64,000 nucleotides of DNA from NCBI RefSeq assembly GCF_030517065.1, contig NZ_CP103950.1, forward strand, positions 1,364,001 to 1,428,000, given 5' to 3'. Of this stretch, positions 9,635 through 52,656 are shown piece by piece; position 1 is the stretch's first letter, and every line of letters starts with the position of its first letter. A program made the translations under genes and the position numbers. Below the pieces are notes generated by a model, which was not told the DNA's origin, ran no database searches, and was given only the letters and a program-made list of their open reading frames with translations. This DNA is from Riemerella columbina (lineage in GTDB: Bacteria > Bacteroidota > Bacteroidia > Flavobacteriales > Weeksellaceae).

Positions 9635-9713
9635 CACCCTGTTAATCAACCTCTGACGAGAGCCGTGTATGTTGTTTAGCTCATCAACTTATTTATTTAA
9701 TCGATTAAAAACA

Positions 9714-39005: not shown

Positions 39006-40043
39006 TTAAATTGAAGTTAAAAATTTCATCGTATCCACATTATCGGCGTAAGTTTTTAAGTCGGGTTGCTGAGCTTGACCAAAATCTATACTTCCCTCTA
39101 AACCTAAACGAGGCGCCGCCGCCACACATTGAATTTCTTCTTTATGCGCATCAATAATAGTGAGGGCATCTTCCAATCGCTCGTAACGGCTAAAATGAAT
39201 CACCGCCAGTGGACTAAACAAACGCTCATCTTCTTTGAGCATTACAAAATTATTATCCCAAAAAACCTCTTGGTTGAGGAGATACACCGCTTTATTATAG
39301 TCATAATTATTGGCATATTGATGGTGATGGATAATATCTTTAAAGCCAAAAAAATTCTCAAACAGACGGTCTAATTTAAAATCCTGCGGAATAAAAAGGC
39401 GCGTTACATTGCGACAGCCCAAACCATAATATATAAAGATATCTTGTGCCAAGCGCTGCAGCTCTTCATCGGTTTCATCACCACGAAGCACCGCCACAGA
39501 AGTTCTATTTTTACGGATGATGTGCGGTACTTTTTTAAAATAATACTCTAAATACCTCGCCGTGTTGTTGCTGCCCGTTGCAATAATGGCATCGTAATTT
39601 TCCATTCTCTCCACTAAGGTATACTCCAAATCACCACCGCAGAACGCCGCCCAGCGCTCCATTAAATAAGGAATCAGCCGCTGATCTTTAGAGGAACATT
39701 TGATGATTGGCGTATGCCCACTCAGCACCACCGAAATAATATCGTGAAAGCCTACCAATGGGATATTCCCTGCTAAAATAAGCCCCACGCGCTTCGGTTG
39801 GTCAATGGTAGGATAAGCAGACACCCATTCCTGAAGTTGGTCTTCCGTTAGAAGTTTTGCCCACTGTTGTAGCGCCCAACGAAGGCTCTCTGGTGTGAAC
39901 CACGCGTTTTCAATTTCGCTGCGTTTTAAAACCTCTGAAAACTGTTGTTCATCGGCGGTATACTGGGCTTCTTCGGTGTTTAAAAAGTGGTTGATCCATT
40001 GCCCTAACTGAGCCAATCCTGAAATTTTAGTGCTTGCCTTCAT
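39006..40043 (-). CDS. Acyl-CoA reductase (LuxC family)
   Basis: A 345-residue aldehyde-dehydrogenase-fold enzyme reducing fatty acyl-CoA to aldehyde with NADPH. RVGLILAGNIPLVGFHDIISVVLSGH is the conserved N-terminal nucleotide-binding stretch, and GLGCRNVTRLFIP contains the catalytic Cys typical of LuxC. It lacks luxAB or luxE partners in the window, so a role in aldehyde/hydrocarbon or wax precursor metabolism or CoA recycling is possible but unproven. Divergently transcribed from the ferredoxin gene 55 bases away, with back-to-back promoter boxes. Confidence 0.88.
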   Translation of the reverse strand: MKASTKISGLAQLGQWINHFLNTEEAQYTADEQQFSEVLKRSEIENAWFTPESLRWALQQWAKLLTEDQLQEWVSAYPTIDQPKRVGLILAGNIPLVGFHDIISVVLSGHTPIIKCSSKDQRLIPYLMERWAAFCGGDLEYTLVERMENYDAIIATGSNNTARYLEYYFKKVPHIIRKNRTSVAVLRGDETDEELQRLAQDIFIYYGLGCRNVTRLFIPQDFKLDRLFENFFGFKDIIHHHQYANNYDYNKAVYLLNQEVFWDNNFVMLKEDERLFSPLAVIHFSRYERLEDALTIIDAHKEEIQCVAAAPRLGLEGSIDFGQAQQPDLKTYADNVDTMKFLTSI

Positions 40044-40082
40044 TGCTATTTTATATAAATGTAATAACTTTGTGCAAATTTA
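40043..40082. promoter_or_regulatory. Divergent ferredoxin / acyl-CoA reductase promoter region
   Basis: On the plus strand TTG 40043-40045 and TAACTTTG 40065-40072 are 19 bases apart and drive the ferredoxin gene. Three bases away, 40075-40082 reads TAAATTTG on the minus strand, facing the reductase. The two -7 boxes abut, so their RNA polymerase footprints must overlap. The minus-strand ATG ends at 40043, overlapping the plus TTG. Confidence 0.65.
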
Positions 40083-40097
40083 AAAATTTTATTAGCA

Positions 40098-40448
40098 ATG
40101 GCGATCATAATAACAGATGAATGTATCAATTGTGGGGCTTGTGAGCCTGAATGCCCGAATACAGCCATATACGAAGGTGCTGTAGACTGGCGCGCTTCGG
40201 ATGGCACAGACCTTAAAGGTAGGGTTACTATGCCTTCGGGGCTAACCATAGATGCTGATGCTCCACAAGAACCTGTGAGTGATGATGTCTATTTCATTGT
40301 CCCAGATAAATGCACCGAGTGCAAAGGCTTCCACGAAGAGCCACAATGTGCCGCCGTTTGTCCAGTGGATTGTTGCGTGCCAGATGAAAACCATGTGGAA
40401 ACCGAGGCGCAACTCTTATCTAAAAAAGTATTTCTACACGGTGAATAA
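40098..40448 (+). CDS. 2[4Fe-4S] ferredoxin
   Basis: 116-residue electron carrier with two cluster-binding motifs: [12 protein letters not shown] (residues ~11-22) and a spaced CTEC-...[12 protein letters not shown] (about 75-97), the usual Alvin/FdxA-like arrangement for bacterial-type 2[4Fe-4S] proteins. Cytoplasmic, low-potential donor. Partner is not obvious: acyl-ACP desaturase (31 kb) usually takes electrons from ferredoxin, and LuxC-type reductase uses NADPH. Start ATG 40098; serC starts 89 bases downstream of its stop. Confidence 0.93.
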
Positions 40449-40537: not shown

Positions 40538-41602
40538 ATGGGTAAAAAACATAATTTTAGCGCAGGACCGTGCATCCTTCCTCAGGAAGTATTTCAAAAA
40601 TCTGCCGAGGCGGTTTTAGATTTTAACCACTCAGGGTTGTCTTTATTAGAAATATCACACCGGAGCCCAGATTTTGTAGAAGTTATGGCGCAAGCCAGAG
40701 CCAGCGTAAAGCGACTAATGAACCTCAATGACGATTATGAAGTGCTTTTCTTACAAGGTGGCGCCAACCTCCAATTTGCTATGGTGCCCTTCAATCTCCT
40801 CTCTACCGAGGGTGTAGCCGCTTATTTAGACACAGGCACTTGGGCGCACAATGCCATTGTAGAAGCCGAAAAAATAGGGCGTGTGGAAGTGGTTGCCTCC
40901 TCAAAGGCTGAAAATTACCACACCATACCGAAGGATTATCAGATAGATCAGCGCTATGACTATTTCCACTGCACTTCTAACAATACCATCTATGGCACAC
41001 AGATGAAAACCTTTCCAAAAGGGGATACCATCAAAGTTTGTGATATGAGCTCCGACCTTTTTTCAAGGCAGTTGGATTTCTCTCAATTTGATCTCATCTA
41101 TGCTGGTGCTCAGAAGAATTTGGGACCTGCGGGAACAGTTTTAGTCGTGGTAAAAAAGGAGATTTTAGGTCAATCAGGCAGAGTGATTCCTTCTTATTTG
41201 GACTATGAACTCCACATCAAAAAGGATTCTATGTTCAATACTCCGCCTGTGTTTGCGGTCTATGCCTCGTGGCTTAACTTGCAATATTTAGAAGCCCATG
41301 GTGGAATTTCGGAAATGGAGAAAAACAACCAAGCCAAAGCACAACTCCTCTATGATGAAATTGACAGAAACCCTTTATTTATAGGCACCGCTGCCAAAGA
41401 AGACCGCTCTATGATGAATGTTTGTTTCCACTTGGTTGATGAAAGCCTAAAAGATCAATTTGACCAAATTTGGAAAAGCCACAACATCAGTGGGCTCAAT
41501 GGTCACCGCAGTGTGGGCGGCTATCGTGCCAGCCTTTATAATGCCCTGCCCATAGAAAGCGTACAAGTATTAGTAAATGCGATGCAACAACTCAAACCTT
41601 AA
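40538..41602 (+). CDS. serC: Phosphoserine aminotransferase
   Basis: PLP enzyme converting 3-phosphohydroxypyruvate to 3-phosphoserine (and contributing to pyridoxal phosphate synthesis). ATG 40538 (MGKKHNFSAGPCILP) gives 354 residues, normal. Schiff-base lysine lies in YAGAQKNLGPAG, with SRNIYGTQ-like substrate region SNNTIYGTQ. First gene of a three-gene serine operon: serA-like starts 7 bases after its stop. No obvious promoter box other than upstream ferredoxin leader, so read-through from it is possible. Confidence 0.95.
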   Translation: MGKKHNFSAGPCILPQEVFQKSAEAVLDFNHSGLSLLEISHRSPDFVEVMAQARASVKRLMNLNDDYEVLFLQGGANLQFAMVPFNLLSTEGVAAYLDTGTWAHNAIVEAEKIGRVEVVASSKAENYHTIPKDYQIDQRYDYFHCTSNNTIYGTQMKTFPKGDTIKVCDMSSDLFSRQLDFSQFDLIYAGAQKNLGPAGTVLVVVKKEILGQSGRVIPSYLDYELHIKKDSMFNTPPVFAVYASWLNLQYLEAHGGISEMEKNNQAKAQLLYDEIDRNPLFIGTAAKEDRSMMNVCFHLVDESLKDQFDQIWKSHNISGLNGHRSVGGYRASLYNALPIESVQVLVNAMQQLKP

Positions 41603-41609
41603 CAAAAAA

Positions 41610-42563
41610 ATGAAAATATTAGCGAACGATGGGCTTTCCCAAAAAGGAGTAAAAATGCTGACCCAAGCGGGGATAGAAGTTTTGGAACACCGCGTAGCCC
41701 AAGAACAGTTGAGCCATTTCATTAACGATAACCAGATTGATGGACTTTTAGTGAGGAGTACCACCAAAGTCCCTAAAGAATTGATAGACGCTTGCCCTTC
41801 GCTTCGGTTGATAGGGCGCGGCGGCGTAGGCACAGACAACATTGATGTGGCTTATGCGGAAAGCAAAGGCATCAAGGTTATTAACACGCCCGCAGCCTCT
41901 GCCCAATCTGTGGCAGAGTTGGTTTTTGCGCACTTTTTCACCTTAGCGAGGTTCCTTCACGAAGCCAATAGAATGATGCCCTTAGAAGGCGAAACCAAAT
42001 TCAAAGCGCTTAAAAAATCTTATGCGCAAGCCGTAGAGCTCTCAGGGAAAACCTTAGGCATTATCGGCTTTGGTAGAATAGGAAAGGAAGTTGCCAAAAT
42101 AGGCATCGCTTTGGGGATGAAGCCCTTGGTGGTTACACGCACAGCAAGAAAAGAAAACCTCAGCTGGTCGTTCTTTGATGGCAGTACGGTTCATTTTGAA
42201 ATAGAAACCACCACTGACCTCCACGAGGTGTTATCACAATCGGATTTTTTGACCATCAACACGCCTAAAACCGAGCATTACCTCATCGATACACCTGAAT
42301 ATGAAGCTATGAAGTCTGGAATATTCATCGTGAATGCTGCTCGTGGTGGCGTTCTTAACGAGCAAGCCCTTTTAGACTTTATAGAATCTGGAAAAATTGC
42401 AGGCGCGGCATTAGATGTTTTTGAAACAGAGCCAGAGCCTTCATTAGCCGTTCTGATGAACCCTGCCCTTTCATTATCTCCACACTTAGGTGGCAGCACC
42501 GTGGAAGCCCAAGATAGAATTGGTACAGAATTAGCACAGCAAATTATAAAATTAAGATCATAA
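41610..42563 (+). CDS. serA: D-3-phosphoglycerate dehydrogenase family (SerA-like) D-2-hydroxyacid dehydrogenase
   Basis: NAD-dependent 2-hydroxyacid dehydrogenase, the first step of serine synthesis by context. ATG 41610 (MKILANDGLSQKG) yields 317 residues. NAD-binding GIIGFGRIGKEVAKI, the substrate R in GLLVRSTTKV and catalytic-acid region SLSPHLGGSTVEAQ are intact. It is the short form lacking the C-terminal ACT/ASB regulatory domains, so serine feedback inhibition as in E. coli SerA is not expected. Tightly coupled to serC and DUF1015 (1-base gap downstream). Confidence 0.9.
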   Translation: MKILANDGLSQKGVKMLTQAGIEVLEHRVAQEQLSHFINDNQIDGLLVRSTTKVPKELIDACPSLRLIGRGGVGTDNIDVAYAESKGIKVINTPAASAQSVAELVFAHFFTLARFLHEANRMMPLEGETKFKALKKSYAQAVELSGKTLGIIGFGRIGKEVAKIGIALGMKPLVVTRTARKENLSWSFFDGSTVHFEIETTTDLHEVLSQSDFLTINTPKTEHYLIDTPEYEAMKSGIFIVNAARGGVLNEQALLDFIESGKIAGAALDVFETEPEPSLAVLMNPALSLSPHLGGSTVEAQDRIGTELAQQIIKLRS

Positions 42564-42564
42564 A

Positions 42565-43806
42565 ATGCCCACTTTTAAACCCTTTAAAGGCATCCGCCCT
42601 AGAGAAGAATATATTAACTCTTTCCCTACGCACCCGCTGGACAACTATACCGATGAACAGCTTGCTCAGAAGGCTAAAGAGCCACACAGCTACATCCAAA
42701 TGGTTAAGCCCTACGCGTGTAGTAAATCTAAAGATGTTGCCAGAAATCTAAGAAAAGTAAGAGCCAATTATGAGGAATGCCTCCAAAATGAATTGAAACA
42801 AGAAGACACTGCTTCCTACTACCTCTATGAGCAAATAATGCCTAACAAAACGGTATTTAGAGGGCTTTTAGGCTTGGTTTCGGTGGAAGATTTCTGGGCT
42901 GGGAAAATCAAAAAACACGAGGCTACCATTACCCAAAGGAAAGAAAAATTAGCTCAATATTTAGAAAAAGTAGAGCTCCAATCTGAGCCCGTGCTTCTGA
43001 CCTACCCTGCCAATGCCAAGGTGGAAATGATGATGAGCCAAGAGGAAAAAAATATCCCTATCATCAATTTTTCTGATCCAGAGGGTATCCGCCACAAAGT
43101 TTGGAAGATAGACAACAGGCTGAAACTTAGCCAGTTTAAAGGCGTATTAGACCAAATAGAAGCGTTCTACATTGCCGATGGTCACCACAGGATAGGCTCG
43201 GCAGCCCTGCACGCTAAAAACCAAAAAGAAAAAAATAAAAAACACACAGGCACAGAGCCTTACAACTTTGTTTTTAGTTTTATCGTATCTAACCAATCCA
43301 TTAAAATCCATGATTATAATCGGTTGATCAAAGACCTCAACGGACTTTCTGAAGCTGAATTTTTGAAAGCGCTGGAACAAGATTTTCTCATCTACGAAAA
43401 AGGCGATGTGCCTTATTATCCGTCTAAAAAGTTCCATATTTCAATGTATTTGGGTGGCAAATTCTACAGCCTCCACATCAAACACGACCTTCGCCCTAAA
43501 AATGAAGATTTAGACAGTATGGACCATGTATTGTTAGAAAAATTCATTTTTAAACCGATTTTAAACATAGAAAACACCAAAAATTCGGATAGAATTAAAT
43601 TTGTAAAAGGGACTTCTAATATTGATGGAATTTTAAAACTTAAAGACAAGGTAGATTCTGGCGAGTTCAAAGTCGCATTTGGGGTTTACCCTGTGAGTTT
43701 CAATGATTTAATTAAGATCTCAGACCTTAATCAAAAGATGCCACCAAAATCCACGCTCATTTCGCCTAAGCTGATTACCGCTATGGTGATGTACGATATG
43801 AGATAG
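42565..43806 (+). CDS. DUF1015 family protein in serine operon
   Basis: 413-residue soluble protein. N-terminal PTFKPFKGIRPREEYI, central IKKHEATITQRKEK, and ADGHHRIGSAAL (residues 204-215) are the hallmarks of DUF1015. The DGHHR element recalls the ParB/SerK-type motif that forms part of a nucleotide/serine-binding site in SerK. It begins 1 base after serA, so it is part of the serC-serA operon. A role in serine metabolism, for example a serine kinase or the missing phosphoserine step, is inference; family function is not established in my knowledge. Confidence 0.85.
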   Translation: MPTFKPFKGIRPREEYINSFPTHPLDNYTDEQLAQKAKEPHSYIQMVKPYACSKSKDVARNLRKVRANYEECLQNELKQEDTASYYLYEQIMPNKTVFRGLLGLVSVEDFWAGKIKKHEATITQRKEKLAQYLEKVELQSEPVLLTYPANAKVEMMMSQEEKNIPIINFSDPEGIRHKVWKIDNRLKLSQFKGVLDQIEAFYIADGHHRIGSAALHAKNQKEKNKKHTGTEPYNFVFSFIVSNQSIKIHDYNRLIKDLNGLSEAEFLKALEQDFLIYEKGDVPYYPSKKFHISMYLGGKFYSLHIKHDLRPKNEDLDSMDHVLLEKFIFKPILNIENTKNSDRIKFVKGTSNIDGILKLKDKVDSGEFKVAFGVYPVSFNDLIKISDLNQKMPPKSTLISPKLITAMVMYDMR

Positions 43807-43810
43807 AGAT

Positions 43811-43849
43811 AAAAAATCCTCGCTAAGTGTTTAGCGAGGATTTTTTTTT
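43811..43849. terminator. Bidirectional terminator after the serine operon
   Basis: Fifteen-base stem AAAAATCCTCGCTAA / TTAGCGAGGATTTTT with loop GTGT and flanking A/T runs, between convergent stops at 43806 and 43864. Confidence 0.92.
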
Positions 43850-52317: not shown

Positions 52318-52348
52318 TTTGCTGTATTTAAAAAAAGTTATATCTTTG
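52318..52348 (+). promoter_or_regulatory. rpsO promoter
   Basis: TTTG 52318-52321, 19-base spacer, TATCTTTG 52341-52348; leader about 30 bases to the rpsO ATG at 52387. No stable leader hairpin of the E. coli type is visible in that short leader. Confidence 0.75.
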
Positions 52349-52386
52349 CAACCTCATACATAATAATCATTTAAAATAATATTGGA

Positions 52387-52656
52387 ATGTATCTAACAAA
52401 AGAAAAGAAAGCGGAAATCTTCGCTAAACACGGAAAATCTGCACAAGACACAGGTAGTACAGAAGGACAAGTAGCCCTTTTTACTTACAGAATTAACCAC
52501 CTATCTCAGCACCTTAAGGCTAACCATAAGGATTTCGCGACTGAAAAATCTTTGGTTAAATTGGTAGGTAAAAGAAAAAGATTATTAGATTATCTGAAAA
52601 ATAAGGATATTGAAAGATATAGAGCACTTATTGCAGAGCTTGGATTAAGAAAATAA
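52387..52656 (+). CDS. rpsO: 30S ribosomal protein S15
   Basis: 89-residue uS15 binding 16S rRNA in the platform. Conserved: KHGKSAQDTGSTEGQVALFTYRINHLSQHLK, KDFATEKSLVKLVGKRKRLLDYLK and RYRALIAELGLRK. Own promoter and terminator; pnp lies downstream (278 bases), conserving the rpsO-pnp neighbourhood of E. coli but with separate transcription units. Confidence 0.97.
   Translation: MYLTKEKKAEIFAKHGKSAQDTGSTEGQVALFTYRINHLSQHLKANHKDFATEKSLVKLVGKRKRLLDYLKNKDIERYRALIAELGLRK

Follow-up and report, generated by a model that had tools for sequence, protein, structure and literature searches.

Three genes, namely serC, serA, and a gene that encodes a DUF1015 protein, are arranged head to tail on the + strand of the window, that is, the whole 64,000-nucleotide stretch of the Riemerella columbina genome analyzed here (Table 1). 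The spacing claimed in an earlier note on this DNA was confirmed in the sequence: seven bases separate the stop codon of serC (41600–41602) from the ATG of serA (41610), and a single base separates the stop codon of serA (42561–42563) from the ATG of the DUF1015 gene (42565). The serA product is short. Its match to TIGR01327 covers profile positions 1–299 of 525, which correspond to the N-terminal part of phosphoglycerate dehydrogenase, and scores below the cut-off of 454; the C-terminal regulatory part is missing according to this profile match. On the other side of serC, genes for a LuxC-like acyl-CoA reductase and a YfhL-type ferredoxin adjoin it (39006–40448). As judged by eye, a similar reductase gene lies beside serC in L125 and L130, both relatives, and L125 also has a ferredoxin gene nearby. 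An Rfam search of the window found no riboswitch or T-box at the serC-serA-DUF1015 operon. The same search identified two ribosomal protein leaders, S15-Flavobacteria and L19-Flavobacteria (52341–52389 and 9647–9674, respectively).

Table 1. Features of the serC-serA-DUF1015 operon, with positions counted from the first letter of the window.
Feature	Position	Strand	Basis or remark
serC, phosphoserine aminotransferase	40538–41602	+	NF003764, 467.5 bits (3-phosphoserine transaminase); TIGR01364, 446.5 bits
serA, short phosphoglycerate dehydrogenase, 317 aa	41610–42563	+	TIGR01327, 267.6 bits; PF02826, PF00389
DUF1015 gene, 413 aa, putative enzyme with SerK fold for the final step to serine	42565–43806	+	PF06245; AlphaFold2 model
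H118-E119 codons	42916–42921	+	counterpart of SerK H29-E30 and SbnI H19-E20; end-anchored structural alignment
D205-G-H-H-R209 codons	43177–43191	+	counterpart of SerK D69–R73 (DGHHR) and SbnI D58–R62 (DGVHR)
P393-P-K-S-T397 codons, conserved C-terminal motif	43741–43755	+	T397 in 243/244 letters
Terminator-like hairpin after the DUF1015 gene	43811–43846	+	16 pairs, T tail; consensus match only

The DUF1015 protein belongs to PF06245 (residues 5–308), with a score of 271 bits against a cut-off of 25.8. This is the sole family reported by Pfam, which identified no second domain (HTH, ParBc, or dimerization) in the protein; the ParBc plus HTH/dimerization architecture of chromosome-partition ParB proteins is thus not present. 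No named NCBIfam family matched the protein, and no match to TIGR00338 was found, which places it outside the HAD-fold SerB family. In the open-licence literature, no published function was found for DUF1015, whether under this name, as COG4198 (which we take to be the same family), or via Bacteroides thetaiotaomicron locus tags. A survey of the ParB-CTPase fold published in 2025 included a DUF1015 protein among 50 candidates; in the accessible text of that survey, DUF1015 is not among the named NTP binders, and the ligands named exclude ADP and AMP (PMC12704722).

The sequence alone gave few clues to distant relatives. Solved relatives were found neither by a profile search against PDB sequences nor by a single-sequence search, and the hhalign comparison of DUF1015 with SerK gave a weak match (probability 37% over 42 columns), in which the DG-x-H-R motifs were paired. 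An AlphaFold2 model was computed from the window protein and 57 relatives (pLDDT 93.9, pTM 0.90). Foldseek returned nine PDB matches for this model with E ≤ 0.001 (range 2.5e-8 to 4.9e-7), and every one is SerK (5x0b/e/g/j/k), its Pyrococcus relative (1vk1), or SbnI (5uje/5ujd/6nr6). The VIA-align Z scores for this set are 11.2–13.8 over 210–225 residues, and the next-best entry is the ParB N-domain 5k5d at Z 3.2. The aligned range starts at residue 82 or later in five of the nine structures and at residue 21–26 in the other four. Both Foldseek and the Z scores place the predicted model in the SerK fold, and a SerK-like fold with intact catalytic residues is well supported. A fold unrelated to ParB/SerK, which the earlier note had named as grounds for refutation, was not what the comparison gave, and the likeness proposed there is supported.

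The catalytic residues could be placed by structure. According to the PDB titles, the ligand complexes of SerK carry a mutation at E30. An alignment of the PDB sequences gives H29-E30 and D69-G-H-H-R73 for SerK, and H19-E20 and D58-G-V-H-R62 for SbnI. The window protein contains A204-D-G-H-H-R209, exactly where it had been noted before, and so carries the DG-x-H-R motif. To place the counterpart of E30 without relying on sequence similarity, a second model was folded from I115 onward (pLDDT 90.6). Its first residue was paired with residue 26 of SerK or its Pyrococcus relative (all six chains) and with residue 16 of SbnI (all three chains), such that E119 falls on SerK E30 and SbnI E20 provided that the first five residues are ungapped. 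Taken by themselves, the HE segments give a weak local alignment (mean score 23.5, compared with 18.1 for shuffled segments; 9% of the shuffles reach 23.5), and the residue equivalence therefore rests on the structural alignment of the I115-start model. Conservation was examined in 246 sequences of groups A and B (defined below) from the Bacteroidota, named, and clostridial sets, including the window protein and leaving out one outlier. E119, D205, G206, and R209 are each present in 246/246 sequences, and H118, H207, and H208 in 245/246. With its catalytic residues nearly invariant, the protein appears to be catalytically active rather than a dead relative.

Among the structurally characterized proteins, SerK (Thermococcus kodakarensis TK0378, PDB 5x0b–5x0k; Pyrococcus 1vk1) is one of the two closest, with the predicted fold shared over most of its 240-residue chain (Z 12.1–13.8) together with the HE and DGHHR catalytic motifs. 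However, the sequence identity is only 12–13%, and DUF1015 has about 80 extra residues at the N-terminus and about 47 extra residues between HE and DGHHR (86 versus 39). Moreover, DUF1015 is bacterial and occurs in serC-serA operons, some of which have a serine T-box in Clostridia. SbnI, a staphylococcal protein of 254 aa, shares the predicted fold (Z 11.2–12.4) with 17–18% identity over the aligned residues; its H19-E20 and DGVHR match H118-E119 and DGHHR of the window protein. A C-terminal P-x-x-x-T-x-F stretch of SbnI also resembles the MPPKST region of DUF1015, as judged by eye. Unlike DUF1015, SbnI belongs to the synthesis of a siderophore (staphyloferrin B) and is not known from a serC-serA operon. 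The likeness to the ParB/sulfiredoxin superfamily, which includes SerK, is limited to the weak structural match to the N-domain of ParB noted above, and the domains that accompany this fold in ParB are lacking. For SerB (TIGR00338), the likeness lies in the reaction and pathway position proposed for DUF1015, and the difference lies in the fold. Regarding SerK itself, the accessible text of Makino et al. describes an ADP-dependent enzyme without clear-cut bacterial homologs, whose gene, in some Desulfurococcales, has serA and a gene for an aminotransferase as neighbors (PMC5120207).

The genome of the window consists of one contig of 2.04 Mb that is 99.96% complete, and it has a single DUF1015 copy. 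The absence of SerB, proposed earlier from the region alone, holds genome-wide at the family cut-off, which rules out a SerB elsewhere at this threshold; the best TIGR00338 match has 20.6 bits, compared with the 144 bits of the cut-off. A phosphoserine phosphatase of the histidine-phosphatase type was also ruled out, as the genome has no PF00300 match. HAD proteins were searched with two Pfam families, PF12710 and PF13419. Over their cut-offs, the genome has a HAD-IB hydrolase ‘hyp1’ (TIGR01490, 112 bits; G000:C1:992114), a YjjG-type nucleotidase/hydrolase, and a third HAD match that is a stretch inside a 595-aa frame. Phosphoserine is a possible cysteine precursor in this organism, with CysE matched below the cut-off only (90 of 210 bits).

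In a survey of 148 genomes drawn over Bacteroidota, DUF1015 was found in 131, SerB over the cut-off in 41, and serC_1 over the cut-off in 63. The pairing of DUF1015 with serC, counted with serC matches of about 377 bits and more, was found within 6 kb in 63 of the 148 genomes, with both genes on the same strand in 61 of these and with both gene orders represented. None of these 63 genomes has SerB, and none of the 41 genomes with SerB has the pairing. Flanking sequence is limited to 1.5 kb at many loci of the survey, and the linkage counts are therefore lower bounds. Five genomes (G106, G117, G002, G079, and G137) have serC and neither DUF1015 nor SerB over the cut-off; in three of them, a reading frame of roughly 440 aa contains a diverged HAD stretch (69–73 bits to TIGR00338).

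A tree of 210 DUF1015 proteins, with G007 left out, has two groups, A (159 proteins, including that of the window) and B (51 proteins), and this split rests on midpoint rooting. The split rules out the treatment of DUF1015 as one uniform family. Among the surveyed Bacteroidota, group A occurs in 79 genomes. In 62 of them, serA or serC lies on the same strand no more than 3.5 kb away, and SerB is present in four of the 79, leaving 75 without it. By the same measure, none of the 51 group B genomes is linked, and 35 have SerB. At the genome level, the Fisher p for the association between SerB and group is 5e-15, but this value is inflated by kinship, as 29 of the 35 genomes come from one family. 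Counted by families, SerB occurs in 1/20 families with group A and in 4/11 with group B.

The four SerB-bearing group A genomes all belong to one family (f2), in which they make up four of the 10 genomes that carry group A DUF1015, and their DUF1015 lies beside other genes. As judged by eye, these neighbors resemble 3-hydroxyacyl-CoA dehydrogenase and yggS genes (L128, L129, L131, and L134). The order serC-serA-DUF1015-yggS, with labels again assigned by eye, is found in L125 and L130. In the SerB-bearing genomes of this family, serC-serA appears to have been relocated away from DUF1015. In some Bacteroidota (L135–L139), group B DUF1015 lies beside scpA-like and tsaB/tsaE-like genes by the same kind of inspection, and it keeps the catalytic residues.

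A scan of named genomes, based on the best 80 of at least 585 DUF1015 relatives, found 54 of these 80 loci to have serA and/or serC on the same strand at a distance of up to 3.5 kb. Together with the 63 Bacteroidota genomes described above, this result bears out the statement in the earlier note that the association is common in Bacteroidota. The adjacency to serine genes recurs across families and phyla, which rules out chance. Among the matches listed, group A is found in Bacteroidales, Clostridium, Anaerotignum, Lutispora, Pelosinus, Acidobacteria, Gemmatimonadetes, Elusimicrobiales, and others. SerB accompanies DUF1015 in 6 of the 36 named genomes searched, all of them Bacteroidales, and five of these six carry serC-serA-DUF1015 clusters. 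A strict exclusion between SerB and DUF1015 is thus ruled out. One of the six, Prevotella disiens, has an interrupted SerB frame.

No SerB over the cut-off was found in any of 118 Clostridia, and the control genomes were positive in 7 of 14 cases, including Escherichia coli. DUF1015 of any group is present in 96 of these 118 genomes, and 22 have neither DUF1015 nor SerB. Sorting with profiles of the two groups assigned 27 of the 96 genomes to clear group A and 23 to clear group B; 40 have only forms that match neither profile strongly, six were not assigned, and no genome has both clear group A and clear group B. Most DUF1015 genes in Clostridia thus lie outside group A. In 19 of the 27 genomes with group A, a gene for SerA, SerC, or a class V aminotransferase lies on the same strand no more than 3.5 kb away. 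Same-strand linkage to serine genes was found in no genome with group B, but in three (L281, L286, and L287) group B DUF1015 and serA are arranged tail to tail, and group B may also serve serine metabolism. Two DUF1015 loci with weak matches to both profiles (38 bits) have serA within 3.5 kb on the same strand (L327 in G224 and L329 in G194), and the former also has serC; the link to serine genes may thus extend to a third group, which is divergent. The absence of SerB alone says little, because SerB is rare in the Bacteroidota sample (5 of 33 families) and missing from all 118 Clostridia.

Information on the direction of the reaction comes from T-box leaders, which were searched in 24 named and 38 clostridial loci (leaving out L308–L367). 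At the Rfam threshold, T-boxes directly precede an aminotransferase-serA-DUF1015 operon in three of the named loci (L110, L085, and L089) and three of the clostridial loci (L262, L266, and L269, the last with two in tandem); in L269, DUF1015 overlaps serA by four bases. Read by the rule for the specifier position, the specifier triplet is UCC (serine), followed by a purine, in all seven aptamers across these six loci. No T-box over the Rfam threshold was found at the aminotransferase-type operons of L258, L260, L265, L282, and L288 or at the serC-type operons, and the T-boxes of L286, L287, L293, and L294 precede other reading frames. In the literature, Ser(UCC) T-boxes have been predicted for clostridial serA, as cited in the accessible text of PMC8002221, and the same source reports that a Paenibacillus serA gene with a T-box is induced by serine starvation. 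In addition, glycine riboswitches were placed before five COG4198 genes, on fragments presumed to be from Firmicutes, in the accessible part of a survey from 2007 (PMC2211319). An operon that is switched on when charged tRNA-Ser is short should make serine. An enzyme that releases serine from phosphoserine fits such an operon, whereas a serine-consuming kinase does not. The earlier note allowed for action on serine or phosphoserine in either direction, or for regulation; of these, the serine T-boxes and the absence of SerB together favor the reverse, biosynthetic direction.

On this evidence, group A DUF1015 is moderately likely to perform the SerB step, from O-phosphoserine to serine, as an enzyme of the SerK fold. 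SerA would make 3-phosphohydroxypyruvate, SerC would make O-phosphoserine, and DUF1015 would take the phosphoryl group off this product in a SerK-type active site (E119 and D205–R209), replacing SerB. Structurally, the protein would be the SerK/SbnI fold enlarged by about 80 N-terminal residues and by the insertion between HE and DGHHR. We infer the catalysis, its direction, and the phosphoryl acceptor. Several observations weigh against this reading: the kinase direction known for SerK and SbnI, the genomes with both SerB and DUF1015, the five Bacteroidota genomes with serC and neither protein, the many clostridial DUF1015 genes outside group A, the generic HAD hydrolases of the genome, the absence of DUF1015 from the NTP binders named in the ParB-fold survey, and the weak sequence kinship to SerK. 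Water, which would make the enzyme a phosphatase, seems a likelier acceptor than AMP or ADP because phosphotransfer from phosphoserine to a nucleotide is uphill. A bolder version of this proposal appears unlikely, namely that group A forms a second, non-HAD class of phosphoserine-dephosphorylating enzymes in which the SerK chemistry is reversed, the phosphoryl group passes to a nucleotide or another acceptor with part of the energy saved, and that these proteins are the hidden final serine enzyme in many SerB-less Bacteroidota and Clostridia.

SerK and SbnI are kinases that work from serine to phosphoserine, and the predicted fold and catalytic residues that DUF1015 shares with these proven enzymes would equally suit a kinase acting on free serine. 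Such an enzyme could feed O-phosphoserine through reversed SerC and SerA into 3-phosphoglycerate for serine assimilation, or supply phosphoserine for another product. Precedent exists in archaea, where clusters of serK with serA and a gene for an aminotransferase are read as serine assimilation in the accessible text (PMC5120207), and the coexistence of DUF1015 with SerB in some Bacteroidales also speaks for such a kinase. However, six clostridial operons carry serine T-boxes and would be expressed when charged tRNA-Ser is short, a condition under which burning serine is senseless, and the clostridial genomes are without SerB over the cut-off. The forward reaction, the main alternative, is rather unlikely in view of these observations. 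An enzyme of a different type, such as the HAD-IB hydrolase encoded at G000:C1:992114, may instead be the true phosphoserine phosphatase, and DUF1015 may catalyze a side reaction (e.g., phosphoryl transfer to another acceptor). This hydrolase and the YjjG-type hydrolase are both available in the genome. In addition, ThrH has a dual phosphoserine:homoserine phosphotransferase activity, as cited in the portion of PMC7478625 available, and YsaA, a HAD protein of Bacillus subtilis, has phosphoserine phosphatase activity, as cited in PMC8002221. Nevertheless, the HAD proteins of this genome fall in generic families and are not encoded near serC-serA, and the repeated coupling of DUF1015 to serA/serC in separate phyla would be left without explanation, which makes this possibility quite improbable. 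The title of 6nr6 names SbnI a ‘Bifunctional transcriptional regulator/O-phospho-L-serine synthase’, and the serA of the window lacks its C-terminal regulatory part; both would suit a regulator or scaffold, in which a ParB-like protein binds serine, phosphoserine, or a nucleotide as a signal and adjusts either SerA/SerC or the operon. Yet the catalytic counterparts E119, D205, and R209 are kept in every sequence compared, and Pfam reports no HTH or other second domain, such that a purely regulatory role is very improbable.

The proposed role of group A DUF1015 in freeing serine from phosphoserine bears on a gap acknowledged in print, since the accessible parts of four studies treat the missing SerB step as an open problem (PMC9026213, PMC7311316, PMC5764234, and PMC7478625). 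According to the available text of one of these, serA and serC without serB are common in Firmicutes, for which serine auxotrophy is predicted and the resulting paradox is acknowledged (PMC7478625). Likewise, 450 gut genomes, from diverse Firmicutes, are reported to have SerA and SerC and none of four SerB types (PMC9026213, accessible text), and the growth of Clostridium perfringens and Enterococcus faecalis without serine is left unexplained in the part of the GapMind study available (PMC7311316). In many bacteria without SerB, the final step of serine synthesis may be catalyzed by DUF1015 as an enzyme so far unrecognized. Group A, present in 79 Bacteroidota survey genomes (75 without SerB) and in 27 of the 118 SerB-less Clostridia, is a testable candidate for part of this gap. 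If the proposal is true, a kinase fold was recruited to biosynthetic dephosphorylation, and a large unnamed family would gain a function.
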